Assembly (NCBI RefSeq): GCF_029223525.1 | Contig: NZ_JARHTQ010000036.1 | Span: 1 to 64,000, forward strand | DNA: 64,000 nt | DNA from: Streptantibioticus ferralitis | GTDB lineage: Bacteria > Actinomycetota > Actinomycetes > Streptomycetales > Streptomycetaceae | Direction: 5' to 3' | Notes under the pieces: generated by a model | What the model was told of the DNA's origin: nothing | The model's database searches: none | Seen by the model: the letters and a program-made list of their open reading frames with translations, nothing else | Shown here: positions 13,496 to 59,687 of the stretch, one piece after another | Layout: each line of letters begins with the position of its first letter | Position numbering within the stretch: position 1 is the first letter of the stretch | Made by a program: the position numbers and the translations under genes

Positions 13496-13870
13496 ATGCA
13501 ACAGAAGCCAATCGACACTGGGCGACTGGGTCAGTTCATGTGCGTGATCGCGCCGGAACGACGTGTCGACCCGACTACCGATGAGCCGCGTAAAGACAGG
13601 GAGGGGCGCGAACAGTGGATCGTGGGGCTGTCCGTACGGCAGGCGGCGGGTCGGCGTACGGACGTGATCCATGTGGTTGTGCCTGGTCAGCCGCGGGGCA
13701 TCGCGGAGGGCATGAGCGTACGGGTGGTCGACCTGTGGGCGAATGACTGGTCAGTGGACGGCAGGAGCGGAACGTCCTGGCGGGCGGAACAGATCGTCCC
13801 GGCTGGGGGCACGGCTGCCAGCGGTGGGAGCGCGGCGGCGGCTCCGGCTGCCCGAAAGGGTGGCGAGTGA
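13496..13870 (+). CDS. SCO3933-family AICE regulatory protein
   Basis: The 124-residue protein starts at ATG 13496, preceded by GGAGTTGAGG. The core GREQWIVGLSVRQAAGRRTD, VIHVVVPGQPRG and GMSVRVVDLWANDW...GRSG matches small proteins of the SCO3933 type that open replication/transfer operons of Streptomyces AICEs. An OB-like beta-rich domain is plausible. It is the first gene of a chain of overlapping genes running through traB to the Spd-like gene, and sits directly behind the GntR operator. Confidence 0.75.
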   Translation: MQQKPIDTGRLGQFMCVIAPERRVDPTTDEPRKDREGREQWIVGLSVRQAAGRRTDVIHVVVPGQPRGIAEGMSVRVVDLWANDWSVDGRSGTSWRAEQIVPAGGTAASGGSAAAAPAARKGGE

Positions 13871-14076
13871 TGCCCTTAACCATCGTCCTTCTGCTGTCCG
13901 CAGAGGAGGCTGCCGGGCTCGCGTGCGTGGTGTGCGGCGAACGGTTCGAGGCCGTGGCCAACGTTCAGGTCGGCCGGTCCACGCTGGGCGCCCCGGTCTA
14001 CGCCTGCACCGCGCCGTGCGCGCACTGGTACCGGTCCGCGGCGGTCGGGCCTACCTCGACAGGGAGTGAGTGCTGA
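13870..14076 (+). CDS. Small zinc-ribbon-like AICE protein
   Basis: A protein of about 68 residues starts at ATG 13870, overlapping the previous stop by one base (TGATG). GTG 13867 is an alternative. CVVCGE and YACTAPCAHWYR give a C-x2-C / C-x3-C-x-H pattern suggesting zinc binding. The function is unknown, but such proteins recur in AICE transfer operons. Confidence 0.65.
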   Translation: MPLTIVLLLSAEEAAGLACVVCGERFEAVANVQVGRSTLGAPVYACTAPCAHWYRSAAVGPTSTGSEC

Positions 14077-14285
14077 TGTACCTGGGGGATGACGACACCT
14101 TCGGTCACCTGCTGCGTGATCTGGAACTGCTGAGCGGTACTAAGTCGCTGCTGGTCACCGTGGATGATCTGCCCACGCTGGAATTCGTGATGGGTATGGT
14201 CGGCGTCACTGCCGAACAGGCCGCACGGCGTGCCCAGTTGATCGGCGCCCGGCTTCGCCTCCAAGGGGGTGGCGGGGATGACTAA
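14076..14285 (+). CDS. Small hypothetical AICE protein
   Basis: The 69-residue protein starts at ATG 14076 (TGATG overlap with the upstream stop, GGGAG upstream). It is acidic and helical (FGHLLRDLELLSG, VMGMVGVTAEQAARRAQL). It overlaps the start of the translocase gene by 8 bp. The tight coupling indicates a role in transfer or its control. No domain is recognised. Confidence 0.65.
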   Translation: MYLGDDDTFGHLLRDLELLSGTKSLLVTVDDLPTLEFVMGMVGVTAEQAARRAQLIGARLRLQGGGGDD

Positions 14286-15612: not shown

Positions 15613-15794
15613 GCCAAAACCAAATCTACCTCTTCGAAATCTTCCTCTGGGTCGTCTCCATCATGCTGGTGCGCGGTAATGACGTGCGCGGCTGGCAACT
15701 CGTCATCATCGCACTGGCCGGTTTCTACCTCGCCCTAACACCCATAGGAAATGCCGTTGTGGCGGTAGTGAACATGCTGGTCATGATGGCCTAG
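15609..15794 (+). CDS. Small membrane protein (Spd-like)
   Basis: The 61-residue protein starts at ATG 15609, sharing ATGA with the traB stop. Two hydrophobic helices are visible: IYLFEIFLWVVSIMLV, and one from about residue 30 (LVIIALAGFYLALTPIGNAV) running into VVNMLVMMA. In AICEs and plasmids, small hydrophobic Spd proteins encoded beside traB promote intramycelial plasmid spread (pock formation). The assignment is by size, topology and position only. Confidence 0.7.
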   Translation: MSQNQIYLFEIFLWVVSIMLVRGNDVRGWQLVIIALAGFYLALTPIGNAVVAVVNMLVMMA

Positions 15795-15928
15795 CGCAAC
15801 ATCTCTCCTTGGCTTTCTTCGACTTTCTCTCTATAGCCTCGCCACTCTCACAGATCACTGACGATGCATCAGATATGGAGCGCTGGCATGTCCGTTCACC
15901 TGCTCGTACCTAGTGGAAGGGGTCCACC

Positions 15929-17380
15929 GTGGCCTACCCGGCTACCTCGGACGCGCGGCGCTCGGCACTGGCAAATGCTGAGCGCCTGCGCGCGTTGACA
16001 GAAACAGAGCGGGATATTATCCGGCTCGTCCATGAACCTGGCTTCCCCCGCTGGCTGGAGCAAATCCACGCCATCGGCGGGTGCGCTCACCCTATATACC
16101 TATCCGGCCGGAAAACCATCCGTGACGCTACCGGCGCGGTTCTCCAGCATTACGACACATCCCACGAACCTGGCGGTCGGCTCGCCGTGCGGTGTCGAAA
16201 CCGCCGTGAGTCCCGGTGCCCGTCCTGCTCGCGACTGCACGCGGGCGACACCTTCCACCTGGTGCGTAGCGGCCTGGTCGGCGGCAAGCACGTGCCTACC
16301 GCTGTCGCCGGGCATCCACGGTTGTTCGTCACCCTGACTGCCCCCTCCTTCGGCGCTGTCCATCGCGCGGGGGAGCGCTGCCATCCACGCCGTGAGGGGG
16401 GCCAGTGCCCGCATGGGCGGCCGGTCCACTGCGGAGCGCACCACGCTGATACCGACCCCCACGTCGGCCAACCGCTGTGCCCCGCCTGCTACGACTACCC
16501 GGGGCACGTCCTGTGGCACGCGATGGCCGGACGGCTGTGGAACCGGTTCTGCACCGAGGCGCGGCGGCAACTCGCCTCCTCGGCGGGCATACCGCGTTCC
16601 CGCTTGCGGGAGCACGTCCTGGTGGGCTTCGCCAAAGTCGCGGAATTCCAACGTCGGGGAGCTGTCCACTTCCATGCCGTTGTGCGCCTCGACGGGCCGC
16701 ACGGTCCTGGGTCGCCCCCGCCCGCGTGGGCTACCGGTGACCTCCTGGAAGAGGCGATCCGTCAGGCGGCGGCTACGACGTACGTACGCGCGCCCTACAC
16801 GCATGCCCTGGGTGAGCCGGTCTTGCGCTGGGGCCCGCAGATCGATATCCACCCAATCCGCGGGCTCGTCGGCGACGGTGCGGTATCCGACTCAGCAGTA
16901 GCGGCCTACGTCGCCAAGTACGTCAGCAAATCCATATCCGACGCGGGCGGCACCGACCAACGCGTTCGCTCGCTGGAGGAAATACAACTCCTGCCCGTGC
17001 ACGCCCACCTACGGGCGCTGATGCTCACCTGCTGGCGTCTCGGCGGCCTACCCGAACTCGCCGACCTGAGACTCAGGGCATGGGCTCACACCCTCGGCTA
17101 CCGCGGCCACGTACTCACCAAAAGCCGGGCCTACAGCACGACGTACAAGGCGCTTCGGGCGGCTCGGGCGGACTATTTGGGCGACACGTCCCGGGGGCAG
17201 GGTGACGGCCTGGTGGACGGCGTTGATGTGGAGTCTGTCTGGCGGTTCGTTGGCTCAGGCCACACGCCCGGCGAGGCCGAGATAGCGCGCGGGATTGCTG
17301 CGGATCGTGAGCATGCGCGTGAGGAAGCGAGGTTTGCGGGTGGCGGCAGTGGGCGCCCTGGCGTTGGGGTTGATCTCTGA
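15929..17380 (+). CDS. repSA: Replication initiator protein (RepSA-like, rolling-circle type)
   Basis: The 483-residue protein starts at GTG 15929, after GGAAGGGG. It has a zinc-finger-like Cys/His region (CPSCSRLHAGDTFH, and a later CHPRREGGQCPHGRPVHCGA), then the HUH metal-binding motif in AVHFHAVVRLDG. A probable catalytic Tyr lies in AAYVAKYVSKS. These are hallmarks of the RepSA group, which nick the double-strand origin and start rolling-circle replication of excised AICEs. The origin is often inside or just before the gene; the 134-bp gap before it holds no ORF. The stop overlaps the start of the next small gene. Confidence 0.9.
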   Translation: MAYPATSDARRSALANAERLRALTETERDIIRLVHEPGFPRWLEQIHAIGGCAHPIYLSGRKTIRDATGAVLQHYDTSHEPGGRLAVRCRNRRESRCPSCSRLHAGDTFHLVRSGLVGGKHVPTAVAGHPRLFVTLTAPSFGAVHRAGERCHPRREGGQCPHGRPVHCGAHHADTDPHVGQPLCPACYDYPGHVLWHAMAGRLWNRFCTEARRQLASSAGIPRSRLREHVLVGFAKVAEFQRRGAVHFHAVVRLDGPHGPGSPPPAWATGDLLEEAIRQAAATTYVRAPYTHALGEPVLRWGPQIDIHPIRGLVGDGAVSDSAVAAYVAKYVSKSISDAGGTDQRVRSLEEIQLLPVHAHLRALMLTCWRLGGLPELADLRLRAWAHTLGYRGHVLTKSRAYSTTYKALRAARADYLGDTSRGQGDGLVDGVDVESVWRFVGSGHTPGEAEIARGIAADREHAREEARFAGGGSGRPGVGVDL

Positions 17381-17520
17381 TGCCGGAGGAGTCGAATGAA
17401 CGTCCCGGCCCCATGACTAAGGAAGAATGGCTTAGGCGTGAGCTAGCTAAGGCGCCGGAGCGTAGTGATCAATGGTGCAGAGAGATGCTGAAGCTATTCG
17501 GTTTTAGGGTATCTGAATGA
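17380..17520 (+). CDS. 46-residue protein between rep and integrase (candidate recombination directionality factor)
   Basis: ATG 17380 shares a base with the rep stop (TGATG), and the gene ends at TGA 17518-17520. It encodes a charged peptide (MTKEEWLRRELAKAPERSD, WCREMLKLFGF). In pSAM2-type AICEs with tyrosine integrases, xis sits exactly here. Serine integrases need an unrelated directionality factor, so this protein is a positional candidate. Very small size and lack of a known fold keep confidence modest. The stop codon forms the base of the following terminator. Confidence 0.6.
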   Translation: MPEESNERPGPMTKEEWLRRELAKAPERSDQWCREMLKLFGFRVSE

Positions 17521-17572
17521 ATAAGGATGGACCCCTCGTTCCCGGCCGCAGTGAGGGGTCCATCCTTATTCA
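17518..17572. terminator. Bidirectional terminator with perfect 20-bp stem
   Basis: Left arm 17518-17537 (TGAATAAGGATGGACCCCTC) and right arm 17553-17572 are exact complements with a 15-nt loop. T-rich ends flank it on both strands. It separates the convergent small gene and integrase. The left arm contains the stop codon of the former. Confidence 0.92.
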
Positions 17573-17580
17573 TCCCGGCG

Positions 17581-19203
17581 CTATGTAGCAGGAGTATTCG
17601 GGGCTGTGTTCTGCTCGTCCTTCGTCCAGAGGATTTCGATGTACGCTGGGTCGAATCGCTTTCCCCGTCCAACCTGGTGGATGAGGACGGCGCGAATGGA
17701 GTGCTTGAGTCTGGCGCGCTTCTCGCTTGTCGTGTAGTCCACCCACTCCGTCAGGATTTTCTCATCTGTGTCGATGGTGGCCCTAGCCTTGGCGGCCTGC
17801 AATTGCCGCGTCTCTTTGACGAGTTGCGCTTCCTCTTTTTCTAGGTGTTCGATGGCGTCCATGGCTTCGATGACGGAAATACGCTTCTCGTTGCGCCGGA
17901 TCTTGACTTGATCCTTCTCCCAAGCGATTTCCTTCAGTCGGGCGTCGTTTTTGGTTGGGTCGACTACCTCTACCTTGACCTTGGACTTCTTCAACCGCTT
18001 CCGTAGGTCATCCAAGAAGGCGGTCTCCACGAGGTCGTCAACGGGGGGCCCGACCCGCGAAACCCCTCCGCATCCGCCAAGAGACGACCTGCACTGGTAG
18101 CGGAACCGGTATTTGGCGTACGCTCCGGTTCCTTTGGTGTACAGGGATGCCCTCATTGGGAAGAAGCATTCTCCGCACCGGGCGATTCCGGTCAAGAAAT
18201 AGGCTGGTGAGGTGTCGTGGTTCGGGTTGCCTTCCCGATTTGATTCCTTGCGTGTCTCAATAGCGCTTACGCATGCGGCCCATTCTTCCGGAGTGCAAGC
18301 GGCCTCCCAGTCCCCGATAACTGGTTTACCGTCCTTATATAGGACGTGATCGGGGAGCCATAGGCGTGATGACTCTCGGTGTAGTTGCTGCGGGATGTAC
18401 ACCACGTAGCCGCAATTCCTGGGGTTGACCAGACGAGCCTCGACCGTGGAGTGTTGAAGAGTCCAGTTGTTCCCGCTTTCCCTGGACCTCTTGTTTGCCT
18501 TGGGGGTGTACCCCTCGTCGATCCACTCTTTTCTAACCTCGCCGACCAACTTGCCGCCAGGGATGGCCCGTACCGCCTCTAGGAGATCCTTGGATTCCTT
18601 GGGGTGCAGGGTCCCGTCCTCGTTCCACCCGAAGGCGCGTGGGCCTCCGTGCTTCTTGCCTTTCAGGGCGCGGGACTTGTTCGTGCCGCTGACCCGCCGC
18701 TTGGTGTTGTGGACTTCGTAGGCGCCCATGGTGGCCTGCACCATGAACATGGTTCGGCCTTCCTGGGTGCTCAGATCGGTACCGCCGTCGAGGGCGCGGC
18801 CGACGTAGCTGGGGAACATCGTGAAGAGGCGGTTGACGCGCGCGGCGTCGTACTCCAACCTGGCCACGCGGTCGGAGTGCGTGAAGAGAAAGCCTCGAAT
18901 CTCGCCGCTCTCAAGGTCTTTGAGCATCTGTTCGAAGTCGCGACGGACGATGAACGGGTCTGAGGCTGGAGTGTTGTTGTCGTTGTACTCGCGGACGATG
19001 ACGCATCCGAGGTTGGGCGCTGCTTCGTGGAGCCTGCGGCGTTGCTCGGCTACCTGCTCGCCCTCTTCGCGCCCTTCGCTGCCAGCGCGTAGGGCCTTGT
19101 CCTCAGACAGGCGGACGTAGATCCCGACAGGTGTCCGTCCCTGCTCAAGGGCTAACGCCCGAGCGGCAACATCTATGCAGGTCATCAGGTTGGTCGAGGT
19201 CAT
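17581..19203 (-). CDS. int: Large serine recombinase (AICE integrase)
   Basis: The 540-residue protein starts at ATG 19203. The catalytic resolvase domain opens with PVGIYVRLSEDK and includes THSDRVARLE. A recombinase domain follows (GPRAFGWNEDG), then a zinc ribbon (ARCGECFFPM, YQCRSSLGGCGG) and a charged coiled-coil region (KIRRNEKRISVIEAMDAIEH). Large serine integrases recombine short attP/attB sites with a 2-bp crossover and no supercoiling requirement. The gene reads away from attR, its start only 43 bp from the 14-bp core, as usual for int next to attP. Target choice in ahpC is unusual among those I know (other genes such as dapC or chaperone genes are used by known Streptomyces phages). 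Confidence 0.95.
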   Translation of the reverse strand: MTSTNLMTCIDVAARALALEQGRTPVGIYVRLSEDKALRAGSEGREEGEQVAEQRRRLHEAAPNLGCVIVREYNDNNTPASDPFIVRRDFEQMLKDLESGEIRGFLFTHSDRVARLEYDAARVNRLFTMFPSYVGRALDGGTDLSTQEGRTMFMVQATMGAYEVHNTKRRVSGTNKSRALKGKKHGGPRAFGWNEDGTLHPKESKDLLEAVRAIPGGKLVGEVRKEWIDEGYTPKANKRSRESGNNWTLQHSTVEARLVNPRNCGYVVYIPQQLHRESSRLWLPDHVLYKDGKPVIGDWEAACTPEEWAACVSAIETRKESNREGNPNHDTSPAYFLTGIARCGECFFPMRASLYTKGTGAYAKYRFRYQCRSSLGGCGGVSRVGPPVDDLVETAFLDDLRKRLKKSKVKVEVVDPTKNDARLKEIAWEKDQVKIRRNEKRISVIEAMDAIEHLEKEEAQLVKETRQLQAAKARATIDTDEKILTEWVDYTTSEKRARLKHSIRAVLIHQVGRGKRFDPAYIEILWTKDEQNTAPNTPAT

Positions 19204-48403: not shown

Positions 48404-49468
48404 TCAAGGCTTACGCGGTCCTGGAAGCCGCACCTTTGGGTTGCACATGGGGGCACGTACATGCTGCTCAATCCAGGTCAGATGGTCCTCAGGCCGGGGT
48501 TCGACAAGGAGTGCCCCGTCAACCGCGGTGACTCTGACAGTTCCTGCGCAGCATCGGTTACCTGTGAGCCCAGCTGCTGGGCGGCCAAGTAGGTGGAGTG
48601 GTTGAGCAGTAGGTGGTTCGCCCGCATGACAGTTCGGTGATAGCTGAGTACAGGCAACGCGGGTACCGGCACGTGAGCTTCTGATCTCAGCAACGGCCTC
48701 AGGCAAGGGGTTTTTAAAGGAACCGCGCCCCATCGAAAAGACGACAACCTCGGGTTGGACGGCCTCGCACAACTGCTTGGCAAACTCGTTCTCCGGGCCG
48801 TCACCGCTGTGCCCGCCGTGGTGCGGGTAGACAAGCACATGGGCAGTCATGGCCTTAGAGCGGCTGAGCATCTGCTCCAGCGCGGCGGCGTCGAGGTCAC
48901 CAGGCAGCAAGAGCGCCGGATGACCATCGAGAAGCACTCGGAGTACGACTGACATGCCGTTGGTGGTGATCTCCGGACGGACTCGGCCCGCCTTGCCCGT
49001 GCCATGACCTATGTCCGTGAGGGTGGGATGAAGGACGTCGATGAGAACTCGTTCGAGGGAGAGATCCCAATCCTGCTCATCGCAGATTCCCACCCGAGTC
49101 CTGAGCCTGCCATCTCGCTTCAACCTAGCGAGCAGGCCCAACAGCTCGTGCCATTTCAAGCTATCCTTGTTGCTATCCGAATTTATCCAGACGGTTCCGA
49201 TATCGAAGTCTTCGTTTGGCAGTAGTCTAAGAGCACCCGCAATATGGTCACTGTCGGCGTGCGACAGCACCAAGTGCTCGATACGGCAGATTCCGGAGTC
49301 AATCAATTCTTGATAAAGAAGCTTATCGGACTTAGCGTCTACGATGACACAGCGCACGCCATCCCGAAGCACGGCACAATTGCCATGTCCCACGTCCAGG
49401 ATCACGGCCTCAGCCGTGTCAACCGCAGTGCGACCTGCTGGGCGAAGTCCACTTTGGACCTCGGTCAT
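48404..49468 (-). CDS. ComEC-like metallo-beta-lactamase-fold hydrolase of a kinase/receiver/MBL operon
   Basis: The 354-residue protein starts at ATG 49468, sharing ATGA with the upstream stop. It has a metallo-beta-lactamase fold of the ComEC/Rec2 C-terminal type: ILDVGHGNCAVLR, metal site H70-A-D72-S-D74-H75, GDLD (LLLPGDLDAAALEQ), and YPHHGGHSGDG. Free-standing ComEC-like MBL proteins often act as nucleases or phosphodiesterases. There are no transmembrane segments, so it is not a DNA-uptake channel. Coupled translation with a receiver-like protein and a kinase-like ATPase suggests it is the effector of a signalling or defence module. Codon bias is weaker than in the core chromosome. Confidence 0.82.
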   Translation of the reverse strand: MTEVQSGLRPAGRTAVDTAEAVILDVGHGNCAVLRDGVRCVIVDAKSDKLLYQELIDSGICRIEHLVLSHADSDHIAGALRLLPNEDFDIGTVWINSDSNKDSLKWHELLGLLARLKRDGRLRTRVGICDEQDWDLSLERVLIDVLHPTLTDIGHGTGKAGRVRPEITTNGMSVVLRVLLDGHPALLLPGDLDAAALEQMLSRSKAMTAHVLVYPHHGGHSGDGPENEFAKQLCEAVQPEVVVFSMGRGSFKNPLPEAVAEIRSSRAGTRVACTQLSPNCHAGEPPTAQPLHLLGRPAAGLTGNRCCAGTVRVTAVDGALLVEPRPEDHLTWIEQHVRAPMCNPKVRLPGPRKP

Positions 49469-50187
49469 TCGGTGTTCCAATCGGCCGGAGGATCTGGAGC
49501 AAGTTCGAGATCGTGGAAGAACAGCTCAGCCTCAGACTCAGCATAGAAGTTAACCTTGCCAAGGAAGACCGTGCCGATCAACGATGAGGAAGCCGACTGG
49601 TGTGTGGCCGGGAGCCGAGTCAGGGGAATGGTTACCACGGTGTCGGGCTTCCAGGCGGTGACCGTTACGTCAACGGTCGGGTATCCGTCGCGATGGACAT
49701 CCACGACACGTACAGGGGTAAGGAACCCTCGACGTTCCAGCGCGCGACGACCAGCTACCTCGGCCGCTGCTGTTTGCAACGCCTCGGGAATTGCCTCTAC
49801 TGAGTGCGGGCCCTTCTGAACTACTCGAGGGATACGGTATCGCCATTCTCGGATAGAGGTCGCTTCGTCGTCTTCGACATGGGCACTGTAAAGCACAGCC
49901 GGGAGCTTCCGTTCATTCGCCCGGTACACCAGCTCCGCTCCGTCGAAGCCGACGCGTGCGTGATGACGCAGCCTGTGATCGGAAATCAATGCAGTACACC
50001 CGCGCCCAAGGATTTCGTCTAACACGCTGTTGAGCGTACGCGGTTCACGTAAAAGCATGGGGTCAACTGTCAGAGGCAGGTCTCCCAACAGATCACAGGC
50101 TCTGATCAGTGCCTCTTCCCGGTCATCCACCAGGGCAACTCTTGGGCTAGCGAGTTCCAGGACGTTGTGAGCACATGCTCTACTCAT
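49465..50187 (-). CDS. Receiver-domain protein with unknown C-terminal domain
   Basis: The 240-residue protein starts at ATG 50187, overlapping the kinase stop (ATGA). Residues about 15-130 fit a two-component receiver: acidic pair D21-D22 (VALVDDREEAL), phosphoacceptor D70 (ALISDHRLRHH), S101 (LYSAHV) and conserved K125 (RVVQKG). The C-terminal 100 residues (VVDVHRDGYPTVDVTVTAWK, GTVFLGKVNFYAESEAELFF) form no known DNA-binding domain, so this is not a usual transcription factor. It probably relays phosphorylation or conformational state from the upstream kinase to the MBL protein. Confidence 0.8.
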   Translation of the reverse strand: MSRACAHNVLELASPRVALVDDREEALIRACDLLGDLPLTVDPMLLREPRTLNSVLDEILGRGCTALISDHRLRHHARVGFDGAELVYRANERKLPAVLYSAHVEDDEATSIREWRYRIPRVVQKGPHSVEAIPEALQTAAAEVAGRRALERRGFLTPVRVVDVHRDGYPTVDVTVTAWKPDTVVTIPLTRLPATHQSASSSLIGTVFLGKVNFYAESEAELFFHDLELAPDPPADWNTE

Positions 50188-52322
50188 GGGGTCGCCGCCT
50201 GCCCGTCGCGTCCCTCTGCCTGTCGAGGCAAGCGGATGTGAAAGGCTGCGCCCCCAAGCTCGCCATGTATCTCTGCTGAGAGCTCGCCCTCTTCAAGGAC
50301 GGTCTTCTTGCCGTGAAGATCAGCGACAATGTCCTTGACGATGGTCAAGCCGAGCCCCGTGCCATCGGAACTTCTACCGCCCTCACCAGGGAGCCACATA
50401 TCTTGTACGGCAACATCCGTGAGCCCAGGGCCAGAGTCGGCGACATCAATTACCACCCGGTCAGCCTCCGCCCGAGTTCGGATGAGCACCGTCCGCTCTC
50501 CCGACGGGTCATTTGAGCGCGCAAAAGCGTGTGCCGCGTTGATGACGAGATTTGCATAAATCGATTCGATATCGGCGATCGGAGTCAGCACGCAGACGGG
50601 CTCATCGCACAGATCGAGATCAAGCTTTATGTGCCAGTCCTGAAGATAGCCGCCAAACATCTCAGCGAACTCGCGACACGCTTCGTTGACGTCGACTGCT
50701 GCAGCTCGGCGCTTGTTGCGGCGCAGCATCCGTAGAGGGACCTTGGCGAATGAGTGGATAGAAGCAGCGCTTCGCTGAGCTCGCCCTAGAGTGCTGTTGA
50801 TCTTCTCCTCGTATGTTTCGGCGTCGAGAAGTTTGCGGCTCCGCCGCTCTAGCATCTCCAAGTCTTCGCCAAGCCCCACAGCTGTGCTCAATGACTCATG
50901 AGCGAACACGGCGGTGCTGATTCCGACCGTCGCCAGAGAGCGATAGAGAAGACGGTCCCGCTCTAGGGCTTGAATGTATCGTTCTTGGGTGTCGACCAGC
51001 TCCGAAACTTGCCTAGCCTGCACTGGGTTGAATCGCTGGAGGTCTTTCAGGACTTCCTTGACTGCTCGCTTCGCCTGATCTTTTTCCTTCCGGACTGTCG
51101 CAGCATTCCCAGTGCGATTGTTATCACGTATGCGCTTTCGCTCTCTGGCGGCCCAGTCAGTTGCACTGCGGGCAAAACTCCGGAGCTCTATGAACGCCAG
51201 ATTTTCTTGAAATCCCATTCGGTCCGTCTTGGGAATCAAGGTGTCATCCGGGTCATCCACCGATACCCGACCAACACTATTGTTGGTGGATGGACGAAGT
51301 TCCGGGCTACGCGATCGCATGAGGTTGAGGTCTAGCCAGTCGAAACCCGAATCGCCATACGGGTGAACGCGTAGCCCCCTGTGAAATAGGTGCACACCAC
51401 CGACTACCTTCAGCCAGGGGCGCAATTCAGTGTACTGTCGTCGGGACCCGCGCAGCTCGAACGACCGCTTGTCCAGGAGAAACATCCACAGTTCGAAAGA
51501 GGCCGACGGAGCTTCGTACTTGAGCGGTGCCTGCAATTGGCCACGAGGCCCGTCAGGAGCCACATCACTGTGCTCACCCCTCACGATCTCCTCGCCCTTC
51601 CAGTTATATAGGACCGTGCGGGCATACCCTTGCTCGTCGAGGTGGGCCTCCAGCTTGTACTCATGTTCGTCGAAGAAACCGCGGTTCACGGCCTCGGCTA
51701 CGCGCTCAAACTGTGGTGCATTCAACGTGGTTTGGAAGCCGGTGTCCTCATCATCGAAGAATCCGGTGAGCAGGCGCATGGCTCGGGCGAGCCGTTCCAT
51801 CTCTGCATCGTCGAACCCTTGCCGAAGGCGGTGAACGGTCAAGTTTGTTCCTGGGCCCTTCCTCGTAGGCCGCGTCTCGACAATGAGTTCGACTTCCTCA
51901 ACGGTTCGCACAGACTCGTACGCTGACCAGTCGATGACCAGGACGTGCTCGACGCCGGGCTCTTCGCGGGGACGAGTGAAGAGTTCGACCTGACGTCCCA
52001 GCCGCAGAGCAGCGAGCCGACCGAGCCCCTTCTCTCCGACCTTGCGACGCTCCTTGCGGGTGAGAGGTGAGGTCGGTTTGGTCGACCGGCCGATCAGGAG
52101 GAAGCCCTCTCGAATGCTCTCCGCTGTCATCCCATCGCCGTCATCCGCGACCACCAGTGTCCCGCCTGGTTGCGAAGCGTTATGCAGTGTGACGGTGCAG
52201 TGAGTCGCATCTGCGTCGTAGGCGTTGCGGACCAGTTCGATCACGCCCAGGTCGGGGTGAGGGATGAGCTCCTCTCCTAGCCGGACCAGGATTTCCGGGG
52301 CGAAGCGCAGATGAGTGCTCAA
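50184..52322 (-). CDS. Double-GHKL ATPase / histidine kinase-like sensor
   Basis: The 712-residue protein starts at TTG 52322, preceded by GGAGGGGG. The N-terminal Hsp90/MutL-type GHKL domain has ELVRNAYDADA (N box, about 29-39), VVADDGDGM (58-65) and VGEKGLGRLA (95-104). A middle region of about 350 residues has no clear family. A coiled-coil, DHp-like helix pair carries H475 in AVFAHESLSTAVG. The second, histidine-kinase-type ATPase domain has NLVINAAHAF (591-600), VADSGPGL and DGTGLGLTIV (653-662). Two GHKL modules in one chain are unusual and suggest a sensor clamp feeding a kinase. It is first in the operon and divergent from a DNA methyltransferase. Confidence 0.85.
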   Translation of the reverse strand: MSTHLRFAPEILVRLGEELIPHPDLGVIELVRNAYDADATHCTVTLHNASQPGGTLVVADDGDGMTAESIREGFLLIGRSTKPTSPLTRKERRKVGEKGLGRLAALRLGRQVELFTRPREEPGVEHVLVIDWSAYESVRTVEEVELIVETRPTRKGPGTNLTVHRLRQGFDDAEMERLARAMRLLTGFFDDEDTGFQTTLNAPQFERVAEAVNRGFFDEHEYKLEAHLDEQGYARTVLYNWKGEEIVRGEHSDVAPDGPRGQLQAPLKYEAPSASFELWMFLLDKRSFELRGSRRQYTELRPWLKVVGGVHLFHRGLRVHPYGDSGFDWLDLNLMRSRSPELRPSTNNSVGRVSVDDPDDTLIPKTDRMGFQENLAFIELRSFARSATDWAARERKRIRDNNRTGNAATVRKEKDQAKRAVKEVLKDLQRFNPVQARQVSELVDTQERYIQALERDRLLYRSLATVGISTAVFAHESLSTAVGLGEDLEMLERRSRKLLDAETYEEKINSTLGRAQRSAASIHSFAKVPLRMLRRNKRRAAAVDVNEACREFAEMFGGYLQDWHIKLDLDLCDEPVCVLTPIADIESIYANLVINAAHAFARSNDPSGERTVLIRTRAEADRVVIDVADSGPGLTDVAVQDMWLPGEGGRSSDGTGLGLTIVKDIVADLHGKKTVLEEGELSAEIHGELGGAAFHIRLPRQAEGRDGQAATP

Positions 52323-52457
52323 GAGTCCCCCTCCGAGCCAGGTCGTGCCCCAGGGTTCCGGGGTCGATCGGACTGCTGCAGAATAGCGGCGGACGGGGCG
52401 TCACCTCTAGCTAACTGCTGGGTAGTTGACGCCAAGAGGGGGGAAGGGGAGCCTCGC

Positions 52458-53789
52458 GTGCGAACAGCCGGGTATGCGGCGTACACCGATCAACTACGGT
52501 TGCTCGCTTCAGACGTTGTCAAGGGCTCGTGGAGGCGAGTCCATCAAGACGTGGAGCATGCTCTGAATGGCCAGGCTGCCCAGCGCTTGCGCAGCCTGGT
52601 GCCGTTGCAGGTCCGTCGGGACGAAGGTGCCTTCTTCACAGGAGGTGAGGTCCGCTCCCGGGTCTCCGCGCTGATGGACACTGGCGAGCCATCGACCGCG
52701 GAACGCTTCTGGGATCCAACATGTGGAGCCGGGGACCTGCTGCTTGCTGCTGCCGATCGTCTCCCTATCGGCTCCACATTGGCCGAAACTGTTCGACTCT
52801 GGGGCAGGCGCTTGCGCGGATCCGATCAGCAGCAGCCGTTCGTGGATGCCGCTCGGTTGCGGCTGCTCCTGGCAGCAGCAGCTAGGCATCGTGGGGAAGT
52901 AAGCCCGGGCAGCATCAATGTGGACGCCGGGCTTCGCGCCTTCCGGGGTATACAAGCTGGCGACGGGCTCGCCTTGCTGCGCTCAACCTCCAGTTACCGA
53001 GGGCATCTGCTGCTTAACCCTCCGTATGGCTCTGCTCCCGCAGACCCCGACTGTGACTGGACTAGCGGTGCCGTTTCGCAGGCCGCCGTCTTTGTCCTCG
53101 CGGCCGCACAGGCACTGGGGATCCAACAACGGATGTTTGCCGTACTGCCTGACGTGCTGCGCAGCGGCAGTCGCTATGAACCCTGGCGCTCTCGGGTGGA
53201 GTCGCTTCTTGATGTGGAACGTGCTGACCTCTACGGACAGTTCGATGCACAGACTGACATCGATGTGTTTCTTATGCGAGCAGCCCGCAGACGCAAGAGA
53301 ACCCCGAGCGTCCCTGCAGGCCCGTGGTGGCCGGCGCCGATGGCCTCGTCAAGCGTTGAAGATGCGTTTGAGGTGCGCGTGGGAGCTGTCGTGGACAATC
53401 GAGACCCGCATGAGGGGCCAGTTGCTCCATTCCTCACTGCTCGCGATCTTCCGCCGTCCGGAGCCAAAGGAGTTCCCGGCCGTTCCCGTCAGTTCGCAGG
53501 GCGATTGGTAACTCCCCCTTTTATTGCGATCCGTCGGACTTCCCGGCCGGGTTCGAGGGCCGGTGGAGAGGCTCGGGCGGCTGGGGTGCTGGTCACAGGC
53601 GTTGATCCGGTCGCAGTGGACAATCACCTGATTACGGCCACGCCGCTGGACGGAGGTGAGGCGGAATGCAAGCGTCTGCTGCAGGTGCTGGAATCATCCG
53701 AGGTATCCGAATGGCTCGACCAGCGCATACGCTGCAGGCACCTGACTGTTGGTGTGGTCCGCTCCCTACCCTGGCCGGGCCTCGGTTAG
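52458..53789 (+). CDS. N6-adenine DNA methyltransferase
   Basis: The 443-residue protein starts at GTG 52458, after AAGGGGAG. RDEGAFFTGGEV precedes motif I DPTCGAGDLLLAAAD (86-92) and motif IV NPPYG (187-191). This is the gamma-type order found in type I/IIG and BREX/DISARM-like methylases (GAFFTP region). The C-terminal half may hold target recognition (IRRTSRPGS). No restriction nuclease follows. It is divergent from the kinase/receiver/MBL operon with 135 bp between starts, so self/non-self marking for that operon is a reasonable hypothesis. Confidence 0.85.
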   Translation: MRTAGYAAYTDQLRLLASDVVKGSWRRVHQDVEHALNGQAAQRLRSLVPLQVRRDEGAFFTGGEVRSRVSALMDTGEPSTAERFWDPTCGAGDLLLAAADRLPIGSTLAETVRLWGRRLRGSDQQQPFVDAARLRLLLAAAARHRGEVSPGSINVDAGLRAFRGIQAGDGLALLRSTSSYRGHLLLNPPYGSAPADPDCDWTSGAVSQAAVFVLAAAQALGIQQRMFAVLPDVLRSGSRYEPWRSRVESLLDVERADLYGQFDAQTDIDVFLMRAARRRKRTPSVPAGPWWPAPMASSSVEDAFEVRVGAVVDNRDPHEGPVAPFLTARDLPPSGAKGVPGRSRQFAGRLVTPPFIAIRRTSRPGSRAGGEARAAGVLVTGVDPVAVDNHLITATPLDGGEAECKRLLQVLESSEVSEWLDQRIRCRHLTVGVVRSLPWPGLG

Positions 53790-54001: not shown

Positions 54002-54373
54002 TTACGCGGATGTCGACTCGGGTCCGTCGATGCCGAAGATGGTTCCGAATGGGTCCGTGAGCTGGCAGATTTTTCGGCCTGGTTCGGCTTCGATGGGGCC
54101 GCGGTGGTGGGTGCAGCCGGCGTCCAGCAGACGCGTGCGGACCGCGTCCACGTGGTCGACGGCCCAGTACACGACGGGGCTGCCGCCGCGTGGATTGCGT
54201 GTCTCGTCGGCGGGATGGAAGCCAAGCTCGATCCCGCTGACGTCCAGCCAGGCGTACACCCTGCCGTCATCCACCTCCAGACGGACCTCGGTATCCAGGA
54301 CGCTCGCCCACCAGCGGGCGCACTTCTCGGGATCGTCGGCGAAGACCATGACGGTACGCACGGCAGTGAACAT
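54002..54373 (-). CDS. VOC (glyoxalase/bleomycin-resistance fold) protein
   Basis: The 123-residue protein starts at ATG 54373. FADDPEKCARWWASVLDTEV, WLDVSGIELGFHPADE, VVYWAVDHVDAVRTRLLDAG and CQLTDPFGTIFGIDG are typical of a single VOC domain. Substrate is unknown. It lies 23 bp after the kinase gene at 54397 in the same direction and could be the last gene of that operon. Confidence 0.88.
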   Translation of the reverse strand: MFTAVRTVMVFADDPEKCARWWASVLDTEVRLEVDDGRVYAWLDVSGIELGFHPADETRNPRGGSPVVYWAVDHVDAVRTRLLDAGCTHHRGPIEAEPGRKICQLTDPFGTIFGIDGPESTSA

Positions 54374-54396: not shown

Positions 54397-55272
54397 TCAC
54401 CTCTCGACGCCGTGGAGGCAGCGCAAGCCCGTGGCCTCCGCGAACGCCGTGAGCGCCCGCACCAGGGCCGCGTCCGTCCACTGGGCGCCAAACATGCTGG
54501 TGCAACGACGGTAGAGGTGCCGGACCGATCGTGGAGACAAACGCCCTCCTTCCACCCGGGCGAGGTGGGCGAGGGTGATCAGGTCCGGTTGGCCCGTCAG
54601 GTCCGGCCGGAGGGTCTCGACGTCGATGACCACCGGGTGCCCGTCGGGATGGCGCCGCCCGTGGTCGGCCTTCAGGTCCAGGTGGCCGACGGGAACATGG
54701 TCCGGGCCGTGCGCGTCGGCGACCACCTTCAGCAGCAGTTCCCACGGGTGCGGGACGCTGATCCACGGCGGCGCCGGGGCGTCGAGAGCCGCCGCGACCG
54801 TCCAGTCGGCCATCGTCTCCTGGATCGCCGGGTGCCACCGGGCAGGGGCCGTGTGGATCGCTGCGACGGTGGCGACCAGTTCCTCGAAGACCGCTGGCCT
54901 GCCGAGGTCCATCCGCTCCTCGACGTACTCGGTGACCAGGGACAACGAGGTGTCGCTGGAGCTGAGCAGGGCTGGCAGCACCCCCTCGCTGTCGAGTAGT
55001 TGGTAGGCCAGTACTTCGCTGAGGTAGGCGGCCTGATCAGCATGCCGCTTGAGTAGCCGCTGCGCCGGGGCACCGAGCGCGAAGGCGGCGGTGCGGTAGC
55101 GGGCGGTGAGGCACCTTACCGGCCCTGCGGATTGAGGGTGATACCGCTGAAGCAGTAGACGGGCCTGCGCTTCAGCCTGGATCCGATTGCGGGTCAGCGG
55201 GCGGGCCAGCCAGCCGTCGGGCCGCAGACGGGCGGCCCCGTCCAACGGCCCGACATGGTTGGTGCAGTTCAC
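54397..55272 (-). CDS. APH-like phosphotransferase of a putative RiPP locus
   Basis: The 291-residue protein starts at GTG 55272, overlapping the upstream stop (GTGA). The protein-kinase-like fold has YLSEVLAYQLLDSEGVLPAL, a catalytic-loop GHLDLKADHG and a metal-binding VIDVETLRPDLTG with Asp. The order matches aminoglycoside-phosphotransferase-type kinases, although the N-lobe is short. APH-like enzymes act in several RiPP pathways (class V lanthipeptides, thioamitides) as dehydratase partners. Here it is coupled to an MBL-fold enzyme and a 40-residue Thr-rich peptide, so Thr/Ser phosphorylation is an attractive but unproven role. Confidence 0.75.
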   Translation of the reverse strand: MNCTNHVGPLDGAARLRPDGWLARPLTRNRIQAEAQARLLLQRYHPQSAGPVRCLTARYRTAAFALGAPAQRLLKRHADQAAYLSEVLAYQLLDSEGVLPALLSSSDTSLSLVTEYVEERMDLGRPAVFEELVATVAAIHTAPARWHPAIQETMADWTVAAALDAPAPPWISVPHPWELLLKVVADAHGPDHVPVGHLDLKADHGRRHPDGHPVVIDVETLRPDLTGQPDLITLAHLARVEGGRLSPRSVRHLYRRCTSMFGAQWTDAALVRALTAFAEATGLRCLHGVER

Positions 55273-56762
55273 GATGCTGCCGTCGGAGTGGACCCGAGCC
55301 GGGACAGGCTGTAGGCGTAGCAGCGGGCCGCCAGGTCAGGGCGTTGATGTTCACCGTAGATCGCGAACAGGGCGTAGACCGGCGAGTCGAGGTTCTCGCC
55401 GATGTGCCACCCCTGGTACGAGCCGCCGACCACGTCCCAGATCTGGGCGCGGCCGGTGAACAGCGCCGCGAGGTCTTGGTAGTAGATCTCGATGCCGAAC
55501 GGGTAGACGGCCATGGCTTCTTCCCGGCTGATGGTCGGTACCGCCTCCCACCTCGGGCCGGTGATGTCCCAGGCGTAGCTGTCCATACTTCCGGGCTGGC
55601 CGGGCGGGTCGAGCAGCCGCAGCACGACGCGGTGGGCGCCGAGTGGGCCGGACAGGTAGTCGTGGATGCTGGTGGCCAGCGCCCCGGTACGTGTGGCCAC
55701 GAACTCGCGCGCCATCCGGGGAAGTTCCCCGGCCACTGCTTCCCGTGCGGCGTCCCATTCGCTTTCGGGCAGCGCGGGGGTGATCGGCGTGGGAGCGACC
55801 TGGCTGGGCTTGTCGAGGAAGAGGTGTAGCTCGGCGGCGGCGCGGTCCTCGGCGGCGGTGTCGATCTCGACCCACGGGACCTGGCTGATGGCGATGGCTT
55901 CCCCGTTGCGCGGCACCGTAAGACAGTCGCCCGGCCGGGGGCCGTGAACGCGGAACAGGTGCTGCATGGCGTTGGCGGCCTGGGCGAGCCTGGCGTGGTC
56001 GGCGTACAGGAAGGGGCCGTGCGGACTGCGCGGGGCGGTGAAGCCGTTGCCGCACAAGGCGACATTGCCCACCCCGTCCAACGGCCGCAGGTAGTCGATC
56101 AGCAGACCGTTGAGGATTTCGAGGCCGGTCTTCCGGTTGCGTGGGCCGTCCATGCCCGGCAGCAGGTTGGCGTCCGCACCCAGCGCCCCGTAGGGAACTG
56201 TCTGGGCGTTGTTGGACACCACCGCAAGACGCGGCGGTGCCAGGACCCCGTCTCTGACCTGCTCGGTGTACAGGTCAGAGACATCGGCGTCCACGCCGAT
56301 GAATACATCGTCGCCGGTGGTGCCGGCGAGACGGACCAGTGGCTGGGCCACCCGTTTTTCCCAGAACAGAGTCCGTGCGCCAGCGGGATACAGCGTGATC
56401 TCGATGTCACCGATCCTGATCGGCTGGGTGTGGTCGGCCCGGTGCACGGTGAAACCGAGGGCGGTGATCGCGTTGGTCACCGCGGCCGGTGTGGTCACGC
56501 CGGTGTAGACGGGCGTGGTGCGCTCCAGCAGGTTCAGCGATGGCAGGTGGAAGTGGTCGAGGTGCTCGTGACTGAGCACCACGGCGTTCGGCGCGGGCAT
56601 CGCGGCGATGTCGACCGAGCGGGGCGGCCAGATGGCGAACTGTAAGTCTCCCGCGCCGAAGGCGGTGTCGAGGATGGGGTCCAGCAGTACGACGGTGTGG
56701 CCGTCGCTAATGTGCCAGGTCTGGTGTCCCAGGAACGTCAGGTGCAAGCCAGAGGAAAACAC
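55269..56762 (-). CDS. Large metallo-beta-lactamase-fold protein of the putative RiPP locus
   Basis: The 497-residue protein starts at GTG 56762. The N-terminal half has an MBL/UlaG-like fold: LTFLGHQTWHIS, VLLDPIL, metal-binding SHEHLDHFHLP and VFIGVDADVSD. The C-terminal half (from about residue 260) is an unrelated alpha/beta region (YGEHQRPDLAARCYAYSLSR at the end). It follows the 40-residue peptide gene after a strong stem-loop and overlaps the kinase gene. MBL-fold enzymes can hydrolyse or oxidise peptides and lactones. The actual reaction is unknown. Confidence 0.8.
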   Translation of the reverse strand: MFSSGLHLTFLGHQTWHISDGHTVVLLDPILDTAFGAGDLQFAIWPPRSVDIAAMPAPNAVVLSHEHLDHFHLPSLNLLERTTPVYTGVTTPAAVTNAITALGFTVHRADHTQPIRIGDIEITLYPAGARTLFWEKRVAQPLVRLAGTTGDDVFIGVDADVSDLYTEQVRDGVLAPPRLAVVSNNAQTVPYGALGADANLLPGMDGPRNRKTGLEILNGLLIDYLRPLDGVGNVALCGNGFTAPRSPHGPFLYADHARLAQAANAMQHLFRVHGPRPGDCLTVPRNGEAIAISQVPWVEIDTAAEDRAAAELHLFLDKPSQVAPTPITPALPESEWDAAREAVAGELPRMAREFVATRTGALATSIHDYLSGPLGAHRVVLRLLDPPGQPGSMDSYAWDITGPRWEAVPTISREEAMAVYPFGIEIYYQDLAALFTGRAQIWDVVGGSYQGWHIGENLDSPVYALFAIYGEHQRPDLAARCYAYSLSRLGSTPTAAS

Positions 56763-56800
56763 GGGTGCTTCTCCCGGGTAGATCGCGAGTAAGGGGCGGA

Positions 56801-56830
56801 CGGGGAGAGGCGCCCATGCGCCTCTCCCCG
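56801..56830 (-). terminator. Stem-loop between peptide gene and MBL gene (possible attenuator)
   Basis: CGGGGAGAGGCGC (56801-56813) pairs perfectly with GCGCCTCTCCCCG (56818-56830), loop 4 nt, 8 bp downstream of the peptide stop. Such hairpins often raise precursor-to-enzyme transcript ratios in RiPP operons. Confidence 0.7.
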
Positions 56831-56838
56831 CGTGACGG

Positions 56839-56961
56839 CTACCGGTGGTAGGTCGTCGGTGCGTTGTTGGTGGTGCCGGTCGCCGCGAACGCCTTCACGC
56901 GACGTTGAAGAAGTCGCACGGCCTCGGCGCTCAGCTTGGTCTGCGTACCGGTCGTGGTCAC
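56839..56961 (-). CDS. 40-residue Thr-rich peptide, candidate RiPP precursor
   Basis: GTG 56961 is preceded by GAGGAGG at 8-nt spacing, and the stop TAG is at 56839. The peptide begins VTTTGTQTKLSAEAV, has a basic helix (LLQRRVKAF) and ends in AATGTTNNAPTTYHR. A second GTG at 56970 is less well spaced. It is followed by a strong hairpin and then an MBL enzyme and an APH-like kinase gene. Small size, excellent ribosome site, a helical leader-like part and a Thr/Asn-rich end fit a RiPP precursor. There are no Cys, so lanthionines are excluded, but dehydration or phosphorylation of Thr is possible. Confidence 0.6.
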   Translation of the reverse strand: MTTTGTQTKLSAEAVRLLQRRVKAFAATGTTNNAPTTYHR

Positions 56962-57117
56962 GTTGCTCACCTCCTCTCTCGCTCCGGTGATGGTCCCTGC
57001 CTGTTGACAGAGGGGTGGGTGTCACCCCAGCCGTCGAGCCCGGGAAACCTGTTCACGGACAACCCCGGCAGGGGTGTGGCGCCCCGGCATCGGGGGATAG
57101 CCGATGGCACCACGGGT

Positions 57118-57156
57118 CCCGGCCGGTCCGGCCCCAGTCACATCGGACCGGCCGGG
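57118..57156 (-). terminator. Terminator downstream of the 57160-57606 gene
   Basis: CCCGGCCGGTCCG (57118-57130) and CGGACCGGCCGGG (57144-57156) form a perfect 13-bp stem with a 13-nt loop. Confidence 0.75.
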
Positions 57157-57159
57157 AGA

Positions 57160-57606
57160 TCATGGGCCCACCACGGCGCGGATCGCCGCGTGGAGGAGCA
57201 CGGCGTGGGTCAGTCGACCGTCGGGCCGCGGCGGGTTGAGCCAGTGCGGCCCTGGGCCTGCGGTCCGTGCCGCGTGTACGACCGTGACCCAGGAGCCGGT
57301 GCTGCGGCAGACCACGCCGGGCAGCTTCCATGAGGCCGTAGCCCCGGGCCGCACCAGCCAGTAGTGCCATCCAGCGTATGGATCGAGGAGCACCGGACCG
57401 GGGTCGCCATGCGTCGCGCCACACATGTGCTCGTAGACCATGGCGGCGGCGTCAGGTCCGAGCCGGACCGCGTCCCATTCCCGGCCTGCCGGCCACAAAG
57501 TCGATTGGCCAGGCAGCGCGGCCACCCATCCACCGGACGGAAGCCGGGCCAGCTGGGAGGTGCACTTCACAACGGCGGGGGACGGGCACGGTTCATACGC
57601 GGTCAT
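57160..57606 (-). CDS. Hypothetical Streptomyces protein next to XRE regulator
   Basis: The 148-residue protein starts at ATG 57606. Its pattern (REWDAVRLGPDAAAMVYEHM, PVLLDPYAGWHYWLVRPG) matches a small-protein family I recall near XRE regulators in Streptomyces, without known function. A second half (GSWVTVVHAARTAGPG, GRLTHAVLLHAAIRAVVG) completes the domain. It is divergent from the XRE/TPR gene with 240 bp between. Confidence 0.65.
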   Translation of the reverse strand: MTAYEPCPSPAVVKCTSQLARLPSGGWVAALPGQSTLWPAGREWDAVRLGPDAAAMVYEHMCGATHGDPGPVLLDPYAGWHYWLVRPGATASWKLPGVVCRSTGSWVTVVHAARTAGPGPHWLNPPRPDGRLTHAVLLHAAIRAVVGP

Positions 57607-57846: not shown

Positions 57847-59121
57847 GTGACCGACGACGTGACACCGTTTCAACGGGCATGTATTTCTCGCGGCTGGGAT
57901 CAGCCCACCGCATTCCTTCAGGCGTTCGATGCCACGGCTCGGCTGCTCGGCGAGCCGGTCACCGTCACCGAACGCCAGCAACGGCGATGGAGGCAGCCGG
58001 ACCCGCCCCAGCCGCGGGCCCGTGCCTGGGCTGTGTTGCAGGCGATGTTCGGAACTGACCCTTCCGTCTTGGGGTTTCGACCCCGGACGGCCGGTGAGAC
58101 GATCACGCCGACGAGGAAGGAGGCGAGCGTGGAACGGCGGACATTTGTAGCCGACGCGGTGGGCATCGCCGCGGGCGCGGCGCTCCCGGCGGGAGGTCAC
58201 GAGGTCGGCTCCGCCCACGTCCTGGAGCTGCGCGAGGGGCTGCGCTCTCTGTATGCCCTGGATGACGCGTACGGTGGTGCCGACGTCCTTTCGCTGGCCG
58301 TGCGCCACCTGCACCGCGTCCGTCGGGTGCTGAACACCGCCGTCGTGCCCGAGCCCATCGCCCGCCAGCTGCATCTACTCGTCGGCGAGACGGCCGAACA
58401 AGTGGCGTGGCTTGCCTACGACGCCGACGACCAGGACGCCGCCCGCCGCTACTGGGGCGAGGCGCTGACCACCGCCACGGTGCTGGGCGACACCGGACTG
58501 GAGGTCCTGGTCCTAGCAGCGTTGAGCATGCAGGCCATCCACGAGGACCGCCCCCGCGACGGCTACGACCTCGCCCGCACCGCCCGCAGCAAGGCCGAAG
58601 GACTCGGCTCCCCTACCCTGCTGTCACTCATCACCGCACGGGAGGCACGTGCACTGGCCCGGATGCGCGACGCCACCGGAGCCAGTCGCCAACTCGCCAC
58701 CGCCATGCGCATGCTGGAGCGCATGGATCGCGGCCGACCCGCACCGCCGTGGGCCGCGTTCCACGGCCCAGCCGAACTCGACTTCGCCCAAGGGCTGCTG
58801 TATGACGACACAGGCCGACCCCGCGCCGCCGTCCCCTTCCTACGCACGGCCGTGACTCGGCAGGCCGCCGCTTACGGCCGCAACCGCGCCCTGTATCGAC
58901 TTACCCTCGCCCGCGCCCTGGTCCACACCGGAGAAGCCGACGAGGCCGCCACCGAAGCCACCGCCGCCCTCGACGACCTCGCCGAAGTCGACTCCGGCCG
59001 CGTCACCCGCCGCCTCGCCCAGGTCCGTGACCAGCTACAGCGCACCGGCGCCCGCGGTGCCCGCGAGGCTGCCGACGCCATCACCCCGTACCTCACCACG
59101 GCATCCGGAGGCCGCCGATGA
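57847..59121 (+). CDS. XRE/TPR-type transcriptional regulator
   Basis: The 424-residue protein starts at GTG 57847. The N-terminal HTH-like part (PFQRACISRGWDQPTAFLQA, TVTERQQRRWRQPDP) is followed by a linker ending ERRTFVADAVGIAAGAALPA and TPR-like helices to the C-terminus. It resembles the AICE regulator at 7274 in layout, not in close sequence. It probably regulates the peptide/MBL/kinase locus to its left. Its stop overlaps the next GNAT start. Confidence 0.78.
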   Translation: MTDDVTPFQRACISRGWDQPTAFLQAFDATARLLGEPVTVTERQQRRWRQPDPPQPRARAWAVLQAMFGTDPSVLGFRPRTAGETITPTRKEASVERRTFVADAVGIAAGAALPAGGHEVGSAHVLELREGLRSLYALDDAYGGADVLSLAVRHLHRVRRVLNTAVVPEPIARQLHLLVGETAEQVAWLAYDADDQDAARRYWGEALTTATVLGDTGLEVLVLAALSMQAIHEDRPRDGYDLARTARSKAEGLGSPTLLSLITAREARALARMRDATGASRQLATAMRMLERMDRGRPAPPWAAFHGPAELDFAQGLLYDDTGRPRAAVPFLRTAVTRQAAAYGRNRALYRLTLARALVHTGEADEAATEATAALDDLAEVDSGRVTRRLAQVRDQLQRTGARGAREAADAITPYLTTASGGRR

Positions 59122-59687
59122 CCCCTCACCCAGCCCTCCAGATCGTCGACGGCCCCGACGCCGTCGACCAGCTCGGCGCGTTCCTGCCTGCCTACGCCGA
59201 GGTCTACGCCGAGCCCCCGTATTGCGAAGGACCGGAGGACGTGAAGGAGTTCACCGAGCGCTTCGCCCGCCAGGCCGCCACCCGCCCGCACTTCCGACTG
59301 GTCCTCGCACGCGATGACGCCGATCAGGTCGTCGGCTTCACCTACGGCTACTGCCTGCCCGCCGAGACCCGTTGGTGGTCTGGCTTGCAGCAGCCGCTCG
59401 CCGATCGTGAATTCACCCGCGAGAACGGCGAGCGCACGTTTGCCGTCATCGAGCTGGCCGTCCGCCAGCCGTGGCGCCGGTCCGGCGTCGCCGCCGCACT
59501 GCACAACGTGCTGCTGGATGGCATGCCCGCCGAGCGGGTCACTCTCACCGTGCGCCCCGAGCCGGAAGCGGCCCCGGCACAGCAGGCGTACAGCCACTGG
59601 GGATACCGCTCCCTCGGCCCCAGCCGCCCGTGGGAGGACGCCCCGCTGTACACGGCGATGATCCGCACAGTCGATGGGCAGCCATGA
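59118..59687 (+). CDS. GNAT-family N-acetyltransferase
   Basis: The 189-residue protein starts at ATG 59118, sharing ATGA with the regulator stop. The GNAT fold has VVGFTYGYCLPAETRWW, the acetyl-CoA region VRQPWRRSGVAAALHNVLLD and a late AQQAYSHWGYRSLG. The substrate is not recognisable. Linked GNATs in RiPP or antibiotic loci can modify or detoxify the product. After its stop the same frame stays open for 40 codons (IDARVQPLYRSRSSTSPYEV), possibly a remnant of a further gene. Confidence 0.85.
   Translation: MTPHPALQIVDGPDAVDQLGAFLPAYAEVYAEPPYCEGPEDVKEFTERFARQAATRPHFRLVLARDDADQVVGFTYGYCLPAETRWWSGLQQPLADREFTRENGERTFAVIELAVRQPWRRSGVAAALHNVLLDGMPAERVTLTVRPEPEAAPAQQAYSHWGYRSLGPSRPWEDAPLYTAMIRTVDGQP

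Follow-up and report, generated by a model that had tools for sequence, protein, structure and literature searches.

A candidate RiPP-type operon in Streptantibioticus ferralitis linking a short peptide with a Tyr-His terminus to a metallo-β-lactamase-fold protein and a kinase

A 64,000-nucleotide stretch of the Streptantibioticus ferralitis genome (contig NZ_JARHTQ010000036.1, positions 1 to 64,000; the window hereafter), part of an 8.8 Mb assembly in 110 contigs, carries an operon for which a reading of the ribosomally synthesised and post-translationally modified peptide (RiPP) type is well supported. On the minus strand a gene for a 40-residue peptide is followed, after a 76-nucleotide gap containing a stem, by genes for a metallo-β-lactamase (MBL)-fold protein, a kinase with the aminoglycoside phosphotransferase (APH) fold and a VOC protein, with genes for a regulator and a GNAT acetyltransferase running divergently. 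Our best guess at function is a maturation directed at the C-terminal Tyr(-His) in which the kinase is obligatory, and on balance we favour a pathway in which these residues are transformed by the MBL enzyme and the kinase adds phosphate to the peptide. The basis is the conserved gene order, the invariant peptide C-terminus, intact kinase residues, an altered MBL site and the replacement of the kinase in a second subtype. A preliminary description of this DNA had proposed a RiPP-type locus whose enzyme pair belongs to no named class, and this has stood: the gene triplet is conserved, the two enzymes evolve together and no account of the pair was found in the literature searched. The core features are as follows.

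56839..56961, minus strand: precursor peptide gene, 40 amino acids, GTG start, TAG stop, C-terminus APTTYHR; in 24 of 25 loci it directly precedes the MBL gene
56970..56975, minus strand: Shine-Dalgarno sequence AGGAGG, 8 nucleotides ahead of the GTG at 56961, read from the sequence
56800..56831, minus strand: hairpin in the gap between peptide and MBL genes, from folding; each of the ten loci folded has a strong stem in this position
55269..56762, minus strand: MBL-fold protein, 497 amino acids, from Pfam, alignments and structure prediction
54397..55272, minus strand: APH-fold kinase, 291 amino acids, from predicted structure, fold matches and conserved residues

The ribosome site of the peptide gene is as good as the preliminary description had it. 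A second in-frame GTG, at 56970, falls within that site and is the less likely start. The peptide contains ten Thr, two Asn and no Cys, and of the earlier characterisation as Cys-free and Thr/Asn-rich only the asparagine part has to be dropped. The downstream hairpin, also correctly anticipated, has a 14-bp stem and a folding energy of -39.1 kcal/mol (z -3.19 for the gap). The stems at the ten loci folded, out of 25, differ in sequence and have z values from -2.09 to -4.86. Such a structure is probably a partial terminator, or a stabilising stem that keeps the precursor mRNA in excess.

Does the peptide accompany the enzymes in other genomes? Searching the species-genome collection with the MBL protein yielded 17 loci. 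In 13 of the 15 designated L001 to L015 the peptide gene stands immediately ahead of the MBL gene; L014, from Caenimonas, shows none, and at L015 a truncated peptide stands beside a broken MBL gene. Among 1727 open reading frames (ORFs) of 30-80 residues from 21 loci, 18 end in Tyr-His followed by Arg, His or Tyr (YH[RHY]) and all 18 are directly upstream of an MBL gene, which is more than chance. Loci L059 and L061 carry the peptide too, with longer mechanical starts. As a test set, a profile of the MBL C-terminal domain was afterwards compared with 35 genomes of the order of Protofrankia; it matched five, Protofrankia included, and each of the four new Frankiales regions has, in the corresponding position, a peptide that ends YHR. 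In total the peptide directly precedes an intact MBL/kinase pair in 24 of 25 loci, L014 being the exception, from Actinomycetota and one Chlamydiales genome, where the preliminary description had left open that the frame might not be conserved beside the pair. L010 and L062 are near-identical, which leaves 24 independent loci among the 25 counted.

The count leaves out loci with broken MBL and/or kinase genes (L015, L035, L037, L064), those with the MBL domain only (L016, L017, L019, L020), the window itself (L018, L021), short versions of, or weak matches beside, loci already used (L022-L031, L040-L050, L056-L058, L095-L099), loci whose contigs are, by length, those of L001, L008 and L011 (L033, L034, L036) and loci collected for comparison of CmlA_N and SCP2 domains (L051-L055, L065-L094). 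Loci of the second subtype, type II (L038, L039), are counted apart from the 25, which are termed type I.

Conservation of the peptide is strongest at the C-terminus, where the preliminary description had proposed to look for conserved residues. All 23 distinct type-I peptides have Tyr at position -3 and His at -2, with Arg (15), His (6) or Tyr (2) at -1; Pro occupies -6 in 19, Gly -12 in 21 and Thr or Ser -13 in 22. Cys occurs in none. With type II included, Tyr at -3 is present in 25 of 25 peptides and Cys in 0 of 25. No Ser or Thr position is invariant across the aligned peptides, and the four Frankiales peptides, which end ALVAYHR, have neither residue in the three positions before Tyr-His.

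The MBL protein and the kinase are encoded by genes that overlap by 4 nucleotides, and the description of a coupled pair, the first member fused to an unmatched domain, is borne out. Pfam models Lactamase_B_2 and Lactamase_B_3 match residues 8-127 of an MBL domain that extends over approximately residues 1-301, and the C-terminal 160 or so residues have no significant match in Pfam or, by sequence, in the PDB, though they may yet adopt a known fold. An AlphaFold2 model built from 15 sequences has pLDDT 84.6 and pTM 0.86. Foldseek places NAPE-PLD (PDB code 4qn9, E 1.6e-10) best for residues 1-301, with CmlA (4jo0) fifth.

The predicted metal site comprises the HxHxDH motif (HEHLDHFH) together with Asp158. 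Nine residues, His67, Asp69, His70, His72, Trp134, Glu135, Arg137, Asp158 and Asn185, are invariant in 29 of 29 MBL sequences, the Trp134-Glu135-x-Arg137 motif among them; His65 is kept in 27 and is Asn in both type-II second copies. The third hydrolase histidine, at position 129, is never His in the 29 sequences (Ala in 26), although the hydrolases encoded elsewhere in the same genome retain it (PAHHW in L019, PARHF in L020). No invariant His that could supply the fifth follows His72 in the 15-sequence alignment. With both ligands missing, the protein is probably not an ordinary two-zinc hydrolase. In CmlA, Glu377 sits in place of the third histidine, and by analogy Glu135 may replace the missing metal ligand here; a profile alignment does not pair the two glutamates.

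Three other identities for the MBL protein were considered and set aside. Compared as profiles, its C-terminal domain and SCP2 domains collected from 16 genomes matched with a probability of 0.3%. A CmlA-type diiron hydroxylase has the fold in common, but the CmlA_N domain (PF18456) has no Pfam match in the window protein and 0 matches in genome G000. For anti-phage defence the sole PADLOC result was AbiEi, covering 49 residues of the MBL protein with E 0.0019, which we take as a chance match.

The kinase matches no Pfam family. The HLDLK and DVET motifs that had been pointed out are present, and the model (pLDDT 90.2) adopts the APH/choline-kinase fold, with 8agy_A as the best VIA match (Z 14.5, rmsd 4.2, 235 residues aligned). 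Lys75, Glu86, Asp199, His204, Asp217 and Glu219 are kept in 25 of 25 sequences. As the catalytic Lys, Glu, Asp and Asp are retained, unlike in the kinase-like cyclase RosX, the protein looks to be an active kinase and not a pseudokinase. MBL and kinase distances correlate closely (Mantel r 0.975, equalled in 0 of 2000 permutations); the two evolve together. In the four intact plasmid copies of the cassette, RefSeq names the peptide 'hypothetical protein'; the kinase carries either that label or 'DIPK family protein'. At two loci a further kinase-like gene lies directly behind the APH-like kinase (L012:10402-11247 and L011, approximately 10400-11130); the L012 copy matches Pkinase with E 7e-5, below the family cut-off.

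The type-II loci come from two Streptomycetaceae genomes, G730 and G610 (L038 and L039). They encode a peptide, two tandem MBL proteins approximately 32% identical to each other and a P-loop kinase replacing the APH kinase. The peptides have 46-47 residues, are 59% identical over 44 residues and end FHHYTR or HHHYVR (His-His-Tyr-x-Arg), with Tyr again at -3. The kinase is matched by AAA_33, Zeta_toxin and SKI models, the first two best. One slot is thus filled by two unrelated kinase families, and a phosphotransfer step is therefore the common theme; the swap does not tell maturation from self-protection. The tandem MBL genes and the P-loop kinase gene occupy L038:8141-11664 and the equivalent stretch of L039; in the second MBL copy Asn replaces the first metal histidine and His replaces Asn184, which suggests a specialised or structural partner.

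Two loci lie further afield. At the Caenimonas locus, L014, the order is HlyD, a C39-peptidase ABC exporter of the NHLM type, MBL, kinase and a histidine-phosphatase-type gene, whereas the Chlamydiales locus, L013, has peptide, MBL, kinase and then an ABC-like protein. The phosphatase-family gene of L014 (10285-10908) directly follows the MBL and kinase genes; together with the kinase it would fit a phosphate that is added and then removed during export.

In the pathway we favour, the helical N-terminal part of the peptide (xVxxLQxRVxxF) would act as leader and the core would be the last 10-12 residues, after the Thr/Ser-Gly step near -13/-12. The peptide would be the substrate of both enzymes: the MBL-fold protein, with two hydrolase ligands lost and its Trp-Glu-x-Arg motif, would transform the terminal Tyr(-His), and the kinase would place a phosphate on the peptide, most likely on Tyr -3 or beyond it. 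Cleavage would then release the modified C-terminal fragment for export, with the divergent NsdA-family regulator controlling the cluster; the sequence of these steps is our conjecture, as are the cleavage and the export. More broadly, we tentatively put forward, at somewhat less than an even chance, that these loci make ribosomal peptide natural products of a new class. Their C-terminal Tyr, with the neighbouring His, would be transformed by an MBL enzyme that has been rewired and is obligatorily coupled to a kinase from either of two unrelated families, and the class would occur sporadically in Actinomycetota, on chromosomes and linear plasmids, and in at least one member of the Chlamydiales.

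To our knowledge MBL-fold enzymes are not known as RiPP maturases. Full-text literature searches, with most subscription papers and all bioRxiv preprints outside their scope, returned no description of such an MBL/kinase locus, judged by titles and the opening lines of abstracts, and 'lactamase' and 'kinase' do not occur in the main text of the decRiPPter paper (PMC7794033). If the proposal is correct it brings a further kind of maturation chemistry, centred on Tyr-His, with a kinase step that is kept while the kinase family is swapped, in a compact three-gene pathway testable in Escherichia coli.

Several observations weigh against it. Neither a product nor a modified peptide is known, and the role assigned to Glu135 is a guess. 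No exporter or protease gene is conserved across the actinobacterial type-I loci; outside that group there are an MFS exporter (type II, checked at L038), a C39-ABC exporter (L014) and an ABC-like protein (L013). No recognisable peptide was found at the Caenimonas locus. The signal of selection on the peptide is modest: synonymous (pS) and nonsynonymous (pN) differences are 0.45 and 0.09 between the window and L002, and 0.17 and 0.10 when six pairs are pooled, the latter weak because most pairs are close. Finally, VOC, GNAT and kinase genes together also resemble self-resistance.

That last point leads to an alternative in which the MBL enzyme alone matures the peptide, and kinase, VOC and GNAT proteins protect the producer by phosphorylating and silencing the product inside the cell, following a phospho-prodrug logic. 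The APH fold, the frequent VOC gene, the GNAT genes and the phosphatase gene after the Caenimonas kinase all fit. Against this, the kinase gene overlaps or abuts that of the MBL protein and tracks it, also at L013 and L014 where VOC was not found, and we consider self-protection unlikely though worth keeping in mind. The peptide might instead be a signal, its modified C-terminal fragment being exported and sensed by the neighbouring regulator, much as RRNPP systems have peptides sensed by tetratricopeptide repeat (TPR) regulators. The C-terminal conservation would suit such a role, as would a TPR regulator that is a divergently oriented neighbour in 13 of 14 loci; yet L013 and L014 have no regulator match, no import gene was found, and NsdA-type regulators are common beside actinomycete clusters, which makes a signal rather improbable.

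A conserved C-terminus on an otherwise helical peptide would also fit a docking tail, and the peptide could be a small subunit or activator of an MBL-kinase pair that acts on another molecule. MBL folds are common to nucleases and phospholipases, and the type-II kinase resembles AAA_33 and Zeta_toxin proteins. Hairpins, however, are often seen behind precursor genes, as here in all loci folded, and a C39 exporter stands beside the Caenimonas pair; we judge a subunit role quite improbable. The mechanism first suggested for this locus, phosphorylation of Thr and elimination to dehydrobutyrine followed by another step, has in its favour an apparently competent kinase and the ten Thr of the window peptide. 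It is unsupported and in our view very improbable, because no Ser or Thr is invariant, the ALVAYHR peptides included, and a HopA1-type lyase (PF17914) was not found (0 of 1 for the own genome; the control was positive in 1 of 14). The universal residue is Tyr -3, and Cys is absent throughout. We therefore retain Tyr(-His)-directed maturation as the working proposal and turn to the setting of the operon.

54002..54373, minus strand: VOC protein (glyoxalase/bleomycin-resistance fold), from a domain match; present in 19 of 25 loci
57160..57606, minus strand: 148-residue ORF upstream of the peptide gene; near full-length match (70%) only in L001
57847..59121, plus strand: NsdA-family TPR regulator, from an NCBIfam match; next to the operon and divergent from it in 13 of 14 loci
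59118..59687, plus strand: GNAT acetyltransferase, from a domain match; gene overlaps the regulator gene

The flanking regulator and GNAT genes are those the preliminary description named. The regulator scores 274.8 bits against the NsdA family (cut-off 75), which 4 of 4 regulators tested pass; at the fourteenth locus the contig ends too early. It is the probable cluster regulator. The VOC protein has a probable accessory or self-protection role and the overlapping GNAT gene is accessory; some other loci have a different GNAT gene, downstream, and a methyltransferase or alpha/beta hydrolase gene stands beside some regulators. The 148-residue ORF, which falls within the interval of the preliminary description and is matched in the sister species Streptantibioticus rubrisoli (L001), is probably not part of the core.

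The cassette was matched in 1 of 396 genomes of a phylum sample and 9 of 394 of the family; around other centre genomes the figures are 2 of 297, 5 of 35, 1 of 116 and 1 of 274, every count including its centre genome. Five of 72,556 plasmid records matched, four of them intact, and viral contigs gave no match. By these counts the cassette is rare and scattered, as expected for a transferable biosynthetic cassette. Decayed copies (L015, L035, L037, L064) occur in Streptomycetaceae genomes and on one plasmid.

Elsewhere in the window, an integrated actinomycete conjugative element (AICE) lies at positions 12552-19203, where third-position GC is lower; its genes encode a GntR regulator, an FtsK/SpoIIIE-type protein, a serine recombinase and a RepSA replication protein of the pSAM2 type. 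At 49465-53789 a 712-residue protein containing two regions of HATPase type, together with its small coupled partner, diverges from an N6-methyltransferase-like protein; PADLOC matches are weak only, and this is possibly a defence module.

Comparison with known systems places the locus between several of them. Mycofactocin and pyrroloquinoline quinone derive from small precursors that contain Tyr and have conservation concentrated in the last residues, as here, but their partners differ and no radical SAM enzyme is seen at this locus. NAPE-PLD and UlaG-type MBL hydrolases share HxHxDH and the bridging Asp, and 4qn9 is the best PDB match by sequence (E 2.7e-6); the protein here differs in the absent third and fifth metal-binding histidines and the extra C-terminal domain. 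The diiron β-hydroxylases CmlA and FrsH, the latter a non-heme diiron leucine hydroxylase (PMC7794379), also have the MBL fold (5kik, Z 17.7, rmsd 5.0, 238 residues aligned) with HxHxDH and a following Asp. They differ in carrying CmlA_N and in acting on carrier-bound amino acids in non-ribosomal peptide synthesis; the sequence match to FrsH is weak and the Glu377 region of CmlA has no confident alignment to Glu135.

Closest in layout are the class V lanthipeptides and thioamitides (LxmK/CaoK/TvaC), which also set a short precursor beside a stand-alone APH-fold kinase. The class V lanthipeptide kinase has a HopA1-like lyase as its partner (PMC9486802); in the loci described here the peptides lack Cys and an MBL-fold protein takes the place of the lyase. 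LxmK (9dk3) is among the fold matches of the kinase model, tied with many (Z 12.5, rmsd 4.8, 226 residues aligned). According to PMC12291118, LxmK has Asp221, Gln226 and Asp241, residues of a kind that RosX has lost. The catalytic Asp199, Mg-binding Asp217 and ATP-binding Lys75 are kept in the kinase here as in LxmK, and His204 stands where LxmK has the Mg-binding Gln226, with the same five-residue spacing, so that the metal-site Asn is replaced in both enzymes, by Gln in one and His in the other.

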